In this document: positions 10,133-19,448 of the stretch, in pieces
How the letters are laid out: each line of letters starts with the position of its first letter
How positions within the stretch are numbered: position 1 is the stretch's first letter
Assembly (NCBI RefSeq): GCF_015687155.1
Contig: NZ_JADPQF010000001.1
Coordinates: 868,001-932,000, forward strand
Direction of reading: 5' to 3'
Length of the DNA stretch: 64,000 nucleotides
DNA from: Aliikangiella sp. G2MR2-5
Lineage (GTDB): Bacteria; Pseudomonadota; Gammaproteobacteria; Enterobacterales; Kangiellaceae
Notes under the pieces: generated by a model
Told to the model about the DNA's origin: nothing
The model's input: the letters and a program-made list of their open reading frames with translations, nothing else
Databases searched by the model: none
Program-made: the position numbers and the translations under genes

Positions 10133-11023
10133 ATGGTACGAAATCTAAAAGCAGTTATCCCTGTGGCTGGTCTTGGCACTCGAATGTTACCAGCTACTAA
10201 GGCGATCCCAAAAGAAATGCTACCTATCGTCGACAAACCTCTTATTCAGTACATAGTCAATGAGTGTATCCTGGCTGGGATAAAGGAAATCGTATTGGTG
10301 ACTCACTCTTCTAAAAATGCGATTGAAAATCACTTTGACAAGTCCTTCGAGCTTGAAACCACACTGGAAAAAAGGGTTAAACGCCAATTACTGGAAGAAA
10401 TTCAAGCTATTTGTCCGAAAGATGTAACCATTATGCATGTTCGTCAGGGTGAATCTAAAGGATTAGGGCATGCGATATCGATTGCCAGGCCTCTGGTTGG
10501 AGAAAATCCGTTTGTTGTGGTATTACCCGACGTTATTATTGATGATGCAAATTGTGACCTGCAAAGTGATAATCTGGCGGCAATGATAAGGAGGTTTGAG
10601 GAGTCAGAAGTATCCCAGGTGATGGTGGAGCCTGTTCCTGATGAGAAAATTTCTAATTATGGAATTGTCGACTGCGACGGCTGTGATTTGAAAAAAGGTC
10701 ATTCGATTCAAATGCAACGTGTTGTAGAAAAGCCTAAAATAGGTGAAGCACCTTCAAACTTGGCTGTTGTAGGTAGGTATGTATTGTCGAAAGGAATATG
10801 GGATTTATTAGAAAACACAGCACCCGGAGCAGGGGATGAAATTCAACTGACAGATGCAATTGATGAGCTTACGAACCTGGAAACTGTAGAAGCTTATCAC
10901 ATGGTCGGTAAGTCTCATGACTGTGGTTCAAAACTCGGATACATGCAAGCTATCGTTGAGTACGGATTGCGTCATTCAGAAATAGGGGAACGGTTTCGAG
11001 ATTACCTGAAAAGAATTCAATGA
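10133..11023 (+). CDS. galU: UTP-glucose-1-phosphate uridylyltransferase
   Basis: This enzyme makes UDP-glucose from UTP and glucose-1-phosphate in the cytosol. The 296-residue protein has the family's usual length. The nucleotide-binding start [19 protein letters not shown] is diagnostic, followed by [29 protein letters not shown] and [14 protein letters not shown]. It opens the rightward block of sugar-nucleotide genes and supplies the substrate of the ugd gene 3.3 kb downstream. The start places the glycine-rich loop about 12 residues from the N-terminus, as normal. There is no strong Shine-Dalgarno ahead of it. A 194-bp gap follows before pgi. Confidence 0.96.
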
Positions 11024-11217: not shown

Positions 11218-12891
11218 ATGCTAATTTCTAATACTAAAGAATGGAAAGCTTTAGAAGCCCACCATCAATCACTTGCAGACATAAAAACTTGTCAACTCTT
11301 AAAGGACAGAGAGAGAAATGACTGCCTGTTCAAAGGTTTTGATAAAATAACAATAGATTTTTCGAAACAAAAAATCAGTGCCAATACATTGGAAATGCTT
11401 TTTGAATTAGCTTTATCGGTAAATCTAAATGAAAAAATTTCAGGTCTGCTAAGTGGAGATAAAGTAAATACAACCGAAGACAGGGCTGCACTTCACACCG
11501 CTCTTCGCTTGCCTGCCGAAAAGTCTTTAATTTTAAATGGAGAAGACATTAATTCCGACGTACAGTTACAGTTAACCAAAATGGAAGAAATTGTTAACCG
11601 GTTAATTAATGGGCATTGGAGGGGGTTCAGTGGTAAGCCGATTACCGATGTAGTTAATTTGGGAGTCGGAGGTTCAGATTTAGGTCCGCTTCTTGTTTGT
11701 GATGCTTTAGATGAATACGAAGTTCAAGGTGAAACAGGAATTAACGTTCACTTTGCATCTACCATGGATGGCTCTCAGATTTCTTCTTTGTTTAGCTCAC
11801 TTAATCCAGAAACTACATTGTTTATTGTTGTATCCAAGTCGTTTACGACGATTGATACTCTGACAAATGCTGAGACGGCTAAACAATGGGTTTTAGAGCA
11901 ATGCAGTAATGAAGCATTGGTAAGTAAACAGCATTTTATAGGTGTTTCTGCTAGCCCTTCTAAAATGGAAGAGTGGGGAATTGTAGCTGAACATCAGCTG
12001 CTCTTTTGGGAATGGGTTGGAGGTCGTTTTTCGTTGTGGTCAAGTGTTGGTATTTGCATTGCTATTAAGCTTGGTATGCGGAATTTCAGGCTGCTGTTAC
12101 AGGGTGCTCATGAAATGGATAAGCATTTCCTTTCCGCTGAGTTTGAAAATAATTTACCCGTTCTCCTTGGCTTGATTAGTATATGGAATGTCAATTTTCG
12201 TAAGATCAACGCTCAAGCAATATTGCCCTATGATGCTCGCCTGGCGGTATTCCCTGATTACCTGACTCAGTTAGAAATGGAGAGCAATGGCAAGTCTGTA
12301 ACATTGAATGGTGAAGCAGTTGATTACGACACTTGTCCTGTACTTTGGGGGGAAGTAGGACCAAATGCTCAACATGCTTTCTATCAGCTGTTACATCAAG
12401 GTACGCAAAAGGTAAATTGCGATTTTATTGCGCCAGTTAAACGGTTTTGTAATACCGACGGAGAGCACGGTAAACGTCTTAAAGAGCAACACCTTTTGAC
12501 GTTGGCCAACTGTTTTGCACAATCGAGAGCTTTGATGTTAGGTTCATCTAGCTCAGAAGGAATATCAAACAAAACCAGAGAAGAATCCGCGAACTCAACT
12601 TCTCATCGACATTACCCAGGAGAGCAACCCTCTACCACTATTTTGCTAGAGGAGTTATCGGCCTATTCACTAGGGCAGTTGATTGCTCTTTACGAGCATA
12701 AAGTCTACGTTATGGCTGTACTATGGAATATCAACCCTTTTGATCAGTGGGGTGTCGAATTAGGAAAGGTTATGGCAGAGGGGACACTCGATGCATTATC
12801 GAATAAGGGTAAAGTTGATGATTTTGATCAGTCGACAAACAAGTTAATTCGTTTCATAAACTCTAAAGTCAAGGATAGCGGAGGTCTATGA
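11218..12891 (+). CDS. pgi: Glucose-6-phosphate isomerase
   Basis: The enzyme interconverts glucose-6-phosphate and fructose-6-phosphate, linking glycolysis to sugar-nucleotide supply. At 557 residues it is slightly longer than the E. coli protein. Both family signatures are present: WEWVGGRFSLWSSVG in the middle and the WNINPFDQWGVELGK segment near the C-terminus. VNLGVGGSDLGP and QLEMESNGK, the latter with the catalytic Glu, are also seen. The gene overlaps the next one, the stop TGA sharing one base with the following ATG, so translational coupling is expected. Placement of pgi inside polysaccharide clusters is common in other gammaproteobacteria such as Acinetobacter. No obvious ribosome site precedes the ATG. 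Confidence 0.96.
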   Translation: MLISNTKEWKALEAHHQSLADIKTCQLLKDRERNDCLFKGFDKITIDFSKQKISANTLEMLFELALSVNLNEKISGLLSGDKVNTTEDRAALHTALRLPAEKSLILNGEDINSDVQLQLTKMEEIVNRLINGHWRGFSGKPITDVVNLGVGGSDLGPLLVCDALDEYEVQGETGINVHFASTMDGSQISSLFSSLNPETTLFIVVSKSFTTIDTLTNAETAKQWVLEQCSNEALVSKQHFIGVSASPSKMEEWGIVAEHQLLFWEWVGGRFSLWSSVGICIAIKLGMRNFRLLLQGAHEMDKHFLSAEFENNLPVLLGLISIWNVNFRKINAQAILPYDARLAVFPDYLTQLEMESNGKSVTLNGEAVDYDTCPVLWGEVGPNAQHAFYQLLHQGTQKVNCDFIAPVKRFCNTDGEHGKRLKEQHLLTLANCFAQSRALMLGSSSSEGISNKTREESANSTSHRHYPGEQPSTTILLEELSAYSLGQLIALYEHKVYVMAVLWNINPFDQWGVELGKVMAEGTLDALSNKGKVDDFDQSTNKLIRFINSKVKDSGGL

Positions 12892-14177
12892 TGAATATTT
12901 TGGTTGTTGGTGGAGGACTAAACTCTTTTGTTTCTGCATCTTTATTTGCCTCGGTAGGAAACACTGTATATTTTAATTCTTTTGGGTGTTCTATTTCGCG
13001 TTATCAGCTAGAACCGGGATTGGAGTCTCTTTTTAAAGAGCAGGTTGAAGTAGGACGAATAGTAGAGATTTCGACCACTAATCAAAAGCTTGAAGAGTCC
13101 TATGAAATTATTGTATTGGGTGAAGAGGTTGAAACTTACTCATTAGAAGATATTGATTGGACGATTAAATTTACCCTGGACCAAGCTATCTGGATTCTCT
13201 TGTCTCCATCTGATATTGGTGAAGCTATTTATTGGAAAAAACGTCTGAACTCTCGAAACAATGGCAATGGCTCAACAGTAAAAAATTGCATTGATGTGAT
13301 TAGTTGTCCCTTGTTAATAAGAGAAGGGAGGGCTCTGGAGGATTTTTCAAGACCAGAACTAATTACATTAGGTTGCGATACGGAATGCTCTGCTATAAGG
13401 GTTAAGGCATTAATGTATCCGTTCAACAGACAAAAAGATGATATTAAAATCGTATCTACCAAAGAGGCCGAGTTTGCCTGTTTTGCGAGTCATGCAATGT
13501 TAGCTACTCGGCTTAGTTTTATGAATGAAATGGCTGCACTAGCTGAGAAAACGGGAGTTGATATCGATGTGATCAGAGCTTGCATCGGCTCAGATCCAAG
13601 GATTGGTTCTAGTTATCTATACCCTGGGTGTGGGTACGGAGGAGCCACGTTGTCTAAGAATCTTCAGCGAATTTCGAGTAAATTGAAACGGAGAAATGAT
13701 GATCTTGGTTTATTGGATATAGTTGCGGAAATAAATAATCGTCAAAAAGATTTGCTATTTAGAAAAATTTGGCATTTTTTTGGAGGCTCTTTAAAAGGAA
13801 AGGTGATTGCTGTCTGGGGGGTGTCTTTTAAACCGGAGACAGATTCTATAGAGGGGGCTCCGGCGCTTCAATTGATTGAGTCACTTACCGCACAGCAAGC
13901 CGAAATTGTTTTCTACGATCCAATGGCTAAACAGAACGCTATTGAGTACTTTGCTGAAAGAGAAATTTCAGTAAAAGCGACGGATAGAGCTATGGATGCA
14001 TGTGACAATGCGGATGTATTGGTTGTGTGTACAGAGTGGAAGGAACTATGGAATCCAAGCTTTGCTGAACTTGCAGCGAGGTTAAGATGCAAAGCGATTT
14101 TTGATGGCAGAAACATCTACGGACCAGACCAGGTTAAACTAGCCGGTCTGAAATATTTTGGTATTGGTAGGCAATAA
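12891..14177 (+). CDS. Degenerate UDP-glucose dehydrogenase paralogue, probably catalytically inactive
   Basis: I prefer the second of two adjacent ATGs, because GGAGG is then 6 bp upstream; the product is 428 residues. The fold is clearly that of UDP-glucose 6-dehydrogenase: LEPGLESLF, MLATRLSFMNEM, PGCGYGGA, WGVSFKPETDSI, VVCTEWKELWNP and AIFDGRNIYGP match the next gene closely. Nearly every active-site residue is changed. The catalytic Cys (Cys-266 in the neighbour) is Thr-253, and the Lys and Asn of KYAAN are Cys-197 and His-201. The Asp of FPKD is Asn, and the first Glu of PEFLxEG is Leu-141. The dinucleotide loop also reads GGGLNSF. The frame is intact, so a structural or regulatory role beside Ugd is possible. 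Alternatively the gene is decaying. Confidence 0.9.
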   Translation: MNILVVGGGLNSFVSASLFASVGNTVYFNSFGCSISRYQLEPGLESLFKEQVEVGRIVEISTTNQKLEESYEIIVLGEEVETYSLEDIDWTIKFTLDQAIWILLSPSDIGEAIYWKKRLNSRNNGNGSTVKNCIDVISCPLLIREGRALEDFSRPELITLGCDTECSAIRVKALMYPFNRQKDDIKIVSTKEAEFACFASHAMLATRLSFMNEMAALAEKTGVDIDVIRACIGSDPRIGSSYLYPGCGYGGATLSKNLQRISSKLKRRNDDLGLLDIVAEINNRQKDLLFRKIWHFFGGSLKGKVIAVWGVSFKPETDSIEGAPALQLIESLTAQQAEIVFYDPMAKQNAIEYFAEREISVKATDRAMDACDNADVLVVCTEWKELWNPSFAELAARLRCKAIFDGRNIYGPDQVKLAGLKYFGIGRQ

Positions 14178-18167: not shown

Positions 18168-19448
18168 ATGGATAGAAAAATATCAGTAATAGGCCTCGGA
18201 TATGTAGGTTTGCCTGTCGCAGTGGCATTTGGAAAGTCTCACCAGGTCATTGGTTTCGATTTAAATCAGACTCGTATCGATGAGTTAAAGTCTGGTAGAG
18301 ATCATACTCTGGAAGTAGAAGATTCTGAACTTGCAGAAGCCGATATTTTGTTCACCGCTGATCCAGAAGATCTGAAAAAGGCAGATTTTCATATTGTGGC
18401 AGTTCCGACACCTATCAACCATGCAAATCTGCCAGACCTATCTCCTATGCTAGGAGCATCAAAGACAATCGGCCAAATTCTTAAGAAAGGCGATATTGTT
18501 GTATTTGAGTCAACCGTATACCCCGGAGCAACTGAAGAAGATTGTGTTCCCGTACTGGAAGCTGAGTCAGGTCTTAAGTGTGGAGTTGACTTCAAAGTGG
18601 GATATTCGCCTGAACGTATCAATCCGGGAGACAAAGAAAGAACTTTCACCAAGATACTTAAGATAGTATCGGGAATGGACAAGGAAACCCTGGATATTGT
18701 TGCTGATGTCTACTCGAGCGTCGTAACTGCAGGCGTTCACCGTGCTCCAACCATCAAAGTAGCTGAAGCAGCCAAGGTCATTGAAAATACCCAGCGGGAC
18801 CTGAATATTGCTTTAATGAACGAGTTGTCAGTTATTTTTGAACGTATGGGAGTTGATACCCTGGATGTTCTTGAAGCGGCTGGTACCAAGTGGAATTTTT
18901 TACCGTTTAAACCGGGTTTAGTCGGAGGACACTGCATTAGCGTTGACCCGTACTATTTGACCTATAAAGCAGAACAAGTCGGTTATCGACCTGAAGTCAT
19001 CCAGTCGGGACGAAGAGTCAATGACAATATGGGACACTTCATCGCTGAACGTTGCGTTAAGAATATGATTTTGAAAGATACCAAAATCAAAGGAGCGAAA
19101 GTTGCTATTCTGGGTCTGACCTTCAAAGAAAACTGTCCGGATCTGAGAAACTCTAAAGTTGTCGACCTTGTTAAGGCTTTTCAAGGGTTTGGTATTCAGC
19201 CAATTGTTACTGATGCCTGGGCTGAGTCCTCTGAAGCCACCAGGTTCTATGGCATTAATCTAAGTCCCCTTGAGGCTGTTAAAGATTGTGAGTTGGTGGT
19301 GGTTGCAGTTTCTCACAAAGAATATGTTAAGCTTGACGTTGAACAGTATAAAGCAATGCTTTCTCCGACCGGAGCTCTATTTGATATTAAAGGCATTTTG
19401 CCGAGGGAAGAGCTCGCCAGTCAGGGGGTTGAAGTTTGGCGAATCTAG
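18168..19448 (+). CDS. UDP-N-acetyl-hexosamine 6-dehydrogenase (WbpO/TviB type)
   Basis: The 426-residue protein is a nucleotide-sugar dehydrogenase distinct from the Ugd pair. It has VIGLGYVGLPVAVAFGK, VPTPINHANLPDL, FESTVYPGATEEDC and YSPERINPGDKE. It also has VIENTQRDLNIALMNELS and the catalytic Cys in GLVGGHCISVDPYYL. This reading matches the WbpO/TviB group that oxidises UDP-GlcNAc or UDP-GalNAc to the uronic acid. With ugd and the epimerase it points to a strongly acidic polysaccharide. It is 85 bp after the mutase gene and 42 bp before manC. Which N-acetylhexosamine is used cannot be decided from the sequence alone. Confidence 0.92.
   Translation: MDRKISVIGLGYVGLPVAVAFGKSHQVIGFDLNQTRIDELKSGRDHTLEVEDSELAEADILFTADPEDLKKADFHIVAVPTPINHANLPDLSPMLGASKTIGQILKKGDIVVFESTVYPGATEEDCVPVLEAESGLKCGVDFKVGYSPERINPGDKERTFTKILKIVSGMDKETLDIVADVYSSVVTAGVHRAPTIKVAEAAKVIENTQRDLNIALMNELSVIFERMGVDTLDVLEAAGTKWNFLPFKPGLVGGHCISVDPYYLTYKAEQVGYRPEVIQSGRRVNDNMGHFIAERCVKNMILKDTKIKGAKVAILGLTFKENCPDLRNSKVVDLVKAFQGFGIQPIVTDAWAESSEATRFYGINLSPLEAVKDCELVVVAVSHKEYVKLDVEQYKAMLSPTGALFDIKGILPREELASQGVEVWRI

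Follow-up and report, generated by a model that had tools for sequence, protein, structure and literature searches.

We report that a 64,000-nucleotide stretch of the Aliikangiella sp. G2MR2-5 genome (the window) carries, between pgi and ugd, an intact gene for a protein of the UDP-glucose dehydrogenase (UGDH) fold in which the active-site residues are replaced. The protein, here called pUGD, has homologues in several gammaproteobacterial families and in the capsule locus of Acinetobacter baumannii, where it has been taken for a UDP-glucuronate synthase. Our favoured explanation, which we hold with a probability of about one half, is that pUGD belongs to an ancient family of UGDH-like pseudoenzymes maintained by selection, has no dehydrogenase activity, and is a UDP-sugar-binding, non-catalytic partner of GalU/Pgi.

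Residues lost and kept in pUGD

The pUGD frame of the window contains neither a stop codon nor a frameshift. Two start codons are possible, the ATG at 12891 or the ATG at 12888, the latter overlapping the pgi stop codon in the sequence ATGA; the motif GGAGGT lies 5 and 2 nucleotides (nt) before them, respectively. The original prediction, made from the letters of the window alone, had described an intact UGDH-like frame without an active site, with a good ribosome site and coupled to pgi, and each of these points was confirmed. Both the UGDH fold and the UDP-binding domain are present: the central and UDP-binding domains scored far above their Pfam cut-offs, and the domain for nicotinamide adenine dinucleotide (NAD) fell below its own (23.4 vs 27 bits).

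Residue comparison likewise bore out the substitutions that had been listed. Thr253 stands at the place of the nucleophilic Cys260, Cys197 and His201 replace the Lys and Asn of KYAAN, Asn257 the Asp of PKD, and Leu141 the first Glu of PEFLxEG; at Tyr10, Glu141, Lys204, Asn208, and Asp264, the window protein has Leu, Leu, Cys, His, and Asn. The dinucleotide loop reads GGGLNS in place of GxGxxG, and the NAD contacts Asp29, Thr83, and Arg327 are changed to Ser, a gap, and Glu. Retained are E145 (the second Glu), R237 of DPRIG, K314 of FKP, and R407 of DGRN.

The losses were then counted across the family. Of 277 open reading frame (ORF) hits, 208 non-identical ones with 380 residues or more and no more than 10 X were retained, 131 without the nucleophilic Cys and 77 with it. 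Removal of the fragment L002 and of seven distant Cys-bearing homologues below 300 bits left 130 distinct pUGDs and 70 canonical, catalytic Ugds, to which all residue counts refer. The sets were divided by the Cys itself, and its absence from all 130 pUGDs therefore holds by construction; the same split is obtained from the clade described below and from Trp294, which makes it independent of the Cys criterion. Trp294 was absent from all seven distant Cys-bearing homologues that had been removed.

Residue roles were taken from passages of PMC4794789, which describe Arg244 of SpUGDH as reaching the glucose of the partner subunit, Gly257 as binding the ribose of uridine monophosphate, Lys320 as contacting the diphosphate, and Tyr10 as hydrolysing the thioester. 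Each NAD contact is present in 70 of 70 canonical Ugds, vs 9 (Gly9), 3 (Gly12), 3 (Asp29), 0 (Thr83), and 5 (Arg327) of the 130 pUGDs, with a gap at Thr83 in 80; Gly9 is retained by the window protein, though by few others. Tyr10 is found in 3 of 130 pUGDs vs 70 of 70 canonical proteins, Glu141 in 3 pUGDs, and Asn208 in 27, and Ser117 (58 of 130) and Thr118 (55 of 130) are intermediate. The position of Cys260 is occupied by Ser (44), Thr (39), Asn (33), Ala (7), Gly (4), Gln (2), or His (1). That nearly all 130 homologues lack Cys, Tyr10, Gly12, and the NAD contacts is far from chance.

Much of the sugar side is kept. Arg244, Gly257, Gly258, Glu201, Asn219, and Asn287 are invariant in pUGD, Gly7 and Pro140 are each found in 129 members, and Lys320 is Lys or Arg in all 130. 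Conservative retention was seen at Glu145 (Glu/Asp in 123), Lys204 (Lys/Arg in 123), and Asp264 (Asp/Glu in 121). The family also has marks of its own, both carried by the window protein: Trp294, in 130/130 pUGDs vs 0/70 canonical Ugds, and Arg291, in 129/130 vs 8/70. Within the FRKxW motif, FRK also occurs in several canonical Ugds, so that specificity lies in Trp294 and, for the most part, Arg291.

Compared with the BceC/TuaD-type UDP-glucose 6-dehydrogenase (EC 1.1.1.22; PDB 2y0c-e, 3gg2), pUGD lacks Cys260, Tyr10, Asp29, Thr83, and Arg327, and its GxGxxG motif is broken; unlike that enzyme, it has Trp294 and linkage to galU/pgi. To judge from these residues, pUGD almost certainly has no UDP-glucose dehydrogenase activity. 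NAD would not be bound, because its contacts are lost, and UDP-sugar binding has probably been retained, because the sugar-side pocket is kept.

Distribution, descent, and gene neighbourhood of the family

An orthologue search in related genomes, suggested along with the original prediction, found the degenerate form in abundance, giving the 130 distinct members. Within the genus (seven genomes including the window's own), three others have the gene at 50–54% identity, Aliikangiella coralliicola and A. marina being two such genus-mates. The close form is present in 6 of 40 genomes of the family Kangiellaceae, the window's own included, and a more distant form in at least four family genomes from another genus (L023-L025, L027). 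A genome contig scan with the window protein as single query found no relative; a scan with a six-sequence alignment did, returning 32 loci, which their residues assign to 27 pUGDs and 5 canonical Ugds (L050-L053, L056). These 27 came from Aliikangiella, other Kangiellaceae, Alcanivorax, Alloalcanivorax, Marinospirillum, Terasakiispira, Halopseudomonas, other Pseudomonas, Moraxella, and some unplaced assemblies; pUGD also occurs in Acinetobacter. Searches at order and class level, with profiles or an early-branching member, were dominated by canonical Ugds, and one of them gave 29 new loci of which 6 were pUGD (L082-L085, L087, L095). In Moraxellaceae, the family of Moraxella catarrhalis, 105 of 119 genomes were matched, the best places being pUGD in 96 and ordinary Ugd only in 9; in this tally of 96/119, L142, L149, L152, L173, and L210 were counted by ORF residues and L209 by motif only. 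A Moraxellaceae-type galU-pgi-pUGD-gne locus was also met on a contig titled Streptomyces cinereus (L061, BMPS01000013.1), a record that is probably contaminated or mislabelled.

A midpoint-rooted maximum-likelihood tree of 81 rows and 442 columns was built from 44 pUGDs, 30 representative catalytic Ugds, and 7 distant dehydrogenases. A branch with 100/100 support, recovered in 100% of 200 bootstrap trees, sets all 44 pUGDs, the window protein included, apart on one side. A larger group (100/99) joins the pUGDs with proteobacterial BceC-type Ugds, and the exact sister of pUGD (L100) is weakly supported (91/68). Long end branches were flagged, one of them a pUGD (L027), as was odd letter composition in 12 rows, 10 of them pUGD; the Moraxella-type pUGDs (L057-L060 and others) are joined to the tree by a long stem. 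Here the pUGD of the window is placed far from the Ugd of the window. The original prediction had called pUGD a paralogue of the adjacent Ugd: the two are indeed homologous, at 36% identity, but pUGD belongs to an old, separate clade, and a recent copy of the neighbouring gene is rejected. The most economical interpretation is a single, ancient loss of the dehydrogenase function, the protein having been retained ever since.

Selection was measured as the ratio of nonsynonymous to synonymous divergence (dN/dS; Nei-Gojobori count, Jukes-Cantor correction). Eight pUGD pairs gave 0.069, 0.029, 0.028, 0.042, 0.055, 0.136, 0.071, and 0.061, similar to the controls ugd (0.037) and pgi (0.055), although dS exceeded 0.7 in 5 of the 10 pairs, controls included (two above 2), where the ratio is rough. 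These values, 0.03–0.14, are far from the expectation near 1 for decay, and purifying selection on pUGD is strong.

The neighbourhood is equally constant. At 129 of 130 pUGD loci the upstream gene, on the same strand, is galU or pgi, and the remaining locus is at a contig end. The upstream gene is pgi in 81 and galU in 48; it overlaps pUGD or is separated by 30 nt or less in 52 of the former and 39 of the latter (91 in all), the largest gaps being about 0.7 kb and all gap lengths resting on a simple start-codon choice. pgi lies downstream of pUGD in 41 loci, and overlaps of 4 or 1 nt between pUGD and pgi, on either side, are recurrent. The galU and pUGD frames share 4 nt in Terasakiispira and lie 2 nt apart at L178; at these two loci pgi was not found next to pUGD. 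Catalytic ugd is not a constant neighbour, unlike galU and pgi; it directly follows pUGD in the window and in G001, G007, and G008. Moreover, a search for catalytic Ugd at E ≤ 1e-10 returned pUGD only in M. catarrhalis, M. bovoculi, Moraxella sp. VT-16-12, Marinospirillum minutulum, and the Kangiellaceae genome G024, and with a canonical Ugd query at E ≤ 1e-20 a single match was obtained in 25 of the 96 pUGD-bearing Moraxellaceae genomes, that match being pUGD in at least 20 of the 25; these genomes are assemblies of varying completeness.

In Aliikangiella marina (L032), which has pUGD, the only Cys-bearing Ugd found besides a TviB-type enzyme is a divergent 397-residue frame upstream of galU, which we take from its length and motif to be of the E. 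coli type. The BceC-type ugd seems to have been replaced there.

The capsule-locus ugd of Acinetobacter baumannii

Three A. baumannii records encode a 420-residue pUGD in the capsule (K) locus order galU-ugd-gpi-gne1-pgm, where gne1, like lldP at the same locus, carries the name we presume from homology. The proteins, identical in two of the records, show the motifs GTTLHA, PDVIQEG, GFGGENFSHD, and FRKLW. The A. baumannii pUGD is 31% identical to that of the window, and its close relatives fall inside the 100/100 clade. This Region 3 'ugd' (galU-ugd-gpi-pgm) thus belongs to the same family as the window protein, with the order galU-pUGD-pgi in Acinetobacter vs galU-pgi-pUGD in the window. In the laboratory strain Acinetobacter baylyi ADP1, for which passages of PMC2606687 give galU as ACIAD0099 and pgi as ACIAD0101, the pUGD gene is probably ACIAD0100. 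The records (L184-L186; CP064203, CP077849, CP104448) are listed in PLSDB as A. baumannii 'plasmids' of 3.6–4.1 Mb with K-locus genes and look like chromosomes.

Passages in PMC3628348 and PMC11494974 assign the K-locus ugd as UDP-glucose dehydrogenase, and a cytoplasmic, NAD-binding Ugd appears among the candidates in PMC6596342; a 9-residue epitope with one letter different suggests that this is the same protein as pUGD. In what these Acinetobacter papers say, the K-locus ugd is treated as an active dehydrogenase or left undiscussed, whereas the pUGD sequence lacks the catalytic residues. According to passages of PMC9676051, galU, ugd, gpi, and pgm are present in all A. baumannii capsule clusters, D-glucuronic acid (D-GlcA) is predicted from the Region 2 genes ugd2-ugd5 in 24 of 237 K loci, and K loci limited to the common Region 3 genes are expected to have neutral sugars. 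Prediction of D-GlcA from ugd2-ugd5 is what one would expect of a universal 'ugd' that makes no UDP-glucuronate; the D-GlcA table fits an inactive Region 3 ugd and does not prove it.

The usual annotation of the A. baumannii capsule-locus ugd is thus probably wrong: by sequence, the three proteins appear incapable of the UDP-glucuronate chemistry credited to the gene, and the reliance on additional ugd2-ugd5 genes for D-GlcA would have a simple reason. A 'housekeeping sugar gene' would become a conserved protein without an assigned role between GalU and Pgi, and correction would be needed wherever pUGD is counted as a dehydrogenase, be it in metabolic models, predictions of capsule structure, or target lists.

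Possible roles of pUGD

In the explanation we favour, the UGDH fold and a large part of the UDP-sugar pocket persist in pUGD, and, as read from its residues, the NAD site, the nucleophile, and the tyrosine for thioester hydrolysis are gone. The pUGD homodimer would bind a UDP-sugar, UDP-glucose or UDP-glucuronate, and would act as a non-catalytic partner on the adjacently encoded GalU and/or Pgi, the choice of targets being suggested by gene neighbourhood. Such a role would match hexose-phosphate flow to the UDP-glucose pool, and Trp294 and Arg291 may mark a contact or switch surface specific to pUGD. We assign the part of partner or regulator of GalU/Pgi tentatively, at slightly less than even odds. 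A more specific and more speculative form, possible but in our view held by the minority of the odds, is that pUGD is a sugar-nucleotide sensor that reads the level of UDP-glucose (or UDP-glucuronate) and sets the activity of GalU and/or Pgi, both in several gammaproteobacterial families and in the A. baumannii capsule locus.

The nearest working analogue would be GalF of Enterobacterales, which resembles pUGD in concept, being a paralogue of a UDP-glucose pathway enzyme that has lost catalysis and is encoded in a polysaccharide locus. Parts of PMC11796359 report that E. coli GalF interacts with GalU and doubt stable hetero-oligomers in Klebsiella. The two have no common origin, GalF being a relative of GalU and pUGD of Ugd: pUGD is of UGDH homology and fold and is not descended from GalU, and it would have arrived at a comparable function from another ancestor.

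Several points weigh against the partner explanation. Operon neighbourhood alone does not establish interaction, and loss of NAD binding is read from residues; the counts for Ser117 and Thr118 suggest that some lineages have preserved a portion of the ancestral NAD pocket, which is not a clean loss of the whole. The sugar pocket of the window protein is more altered than that of most members (Lys204 to Cys, Asn208 to His, Asp264 to Asn). In 23 Moraxella-type pUGDs, L057-L060 among this type, Lys320 is replaced by Arg and the DGR arginine by Lys, and 23 other pUGDs have Gln for that arginine; in such members the ligand may have changed. The position of pUGD directly before ugd in some Kangiellaceae is predicted by a Ugd-partner model too. 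As for the capsule loci, the D-GlcA table of PMC9676051 is restricted to Region 2 modules, and not all homology groups are borne out by structures.

The original prediction had suggested a regulatory subunit of Ugd. In this scheme pUGD would form a heterodimer with catalytic Ugd through the conserved central helix and lend its Arg244 equivalent to the active partner, which agrees with the strict retention of Arg244 and of the central-domain Glu201 and Asn219 (130/130), and with the ugd that directly follows in the window and three other loci. However, Arg244 could equally serve a pUGD homodimer, the constant neighbours are galU and pgi (129/130) and not ugd, and pUGD is the sole UGDH-family match in five genomes at 1e-10 and the single match, as counted above, in many Moraxellaceae at 1e-20; in A. 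marina, besides the TviB-type enzyme, the only Cys-bearing Ugd-like match is short and divergent. Since many pUGD genomes have no catalytic Ugd match, a general role as Ugd subunit is unlikely, and as the function of the family we reject it; restricted to lineages like that of the window, it stays among the rivals, and the subunit reading as a whole is improbable. Somewhat less improbable, yet still doubtful, is a re-tooled enzyme with a different UDP-sugar activity, in which Ser, Thr, or Asn replaces Cys and no NAD is used. The conservation of E/D145, K/R204, and D/E264 (121–123 of 130) and the family's own invariant Trp294 would suit it, but the Cys260 position varies freely, unlike a new catalytic residue, and the window protein has neither Lys204 nor Asp264. 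We also know of no missing enzyme in the galU-pgi pathway.

An assembly scaffold or co-translational chaperone for Pgi or GalU that binds no ligand would accord with the recurrent 4-nt and 1-nt overlaps with pgi, which favour co-translational assembly; a pure scaffold would have no need of so much of the old UDP-sugar pocket (Gly257/258, Lys/Arg320, Arg244), and we regard it as unlikely. Decay of a ugd duplicate would account for the loss of many catalytic residues, but the absence of stops, the low dN/dS, the orthologues with the same core losses in a single 100/100 clade, the family-specific invariant residues, and the synteny at 129/130 loci lead us to reject it, and the claim that pUGD is a pseudoenzyme rather than a product of random decay was upheld.

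In the open-access literature, to which our search was confined, subscription papers lying outside its scope, no paper joining 'UDP-glucose dehydrogenase' or 'UDP-glucose 6-dehydrogenase' with 'pseudoenzyme' was found, and none describing a capsule 'ugd' without the catalytic Cys. Conserved pseudoenzymes are already known; what appears to be new is the pUGD family, which adds one to UDP-sugar metabolism, together with its range and the membership of the A. baumannii K-locus ugd in it.

The features of the window are listed below; the names pgi and galU are those we presume from the type of sequence.

Features of the pUGD locus, in window positions
Feature	Position	Strand	Remark
galU, UDP-glucose pyrophosphorylase	10133..11023	+	used as search query
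pgi, glucose-6-phosphate isomerase	11218..12891	+	overlaps pUGD start; homologues located by tblastn
pUGD, UGDH-fold pseudoenzyme, 428 aa	12891..14177	+	start possibly 12888
Degenerate Rossmann motif GGGLNS (canonical GxGYVG)	12909..12926	+	residue comparison
Arg237 codon, kept (= SpUGDH Arg244)	13599..13601	+	130/130 pUGD, 70/70 canonical
Thr253 codon, at place of nucleophilic Cys260	13647..13649	+	Cys: 0/130 pUGD, 70/70 canonical
pUGD signature FRKIW, residues 290-294	13758..13772	+	Trp294 specific to pUGD
Canonical catalytic ugd (BceC/TuaD type), 447 aa	14313..15656	+	every catalytic residue present

A third nucleotide-sugar dehydrogenase, which we take to be TviB/WbpA-like, is encoded in the same cluster at 18168-19448 (+) and has a normal Pfam NAD domain.

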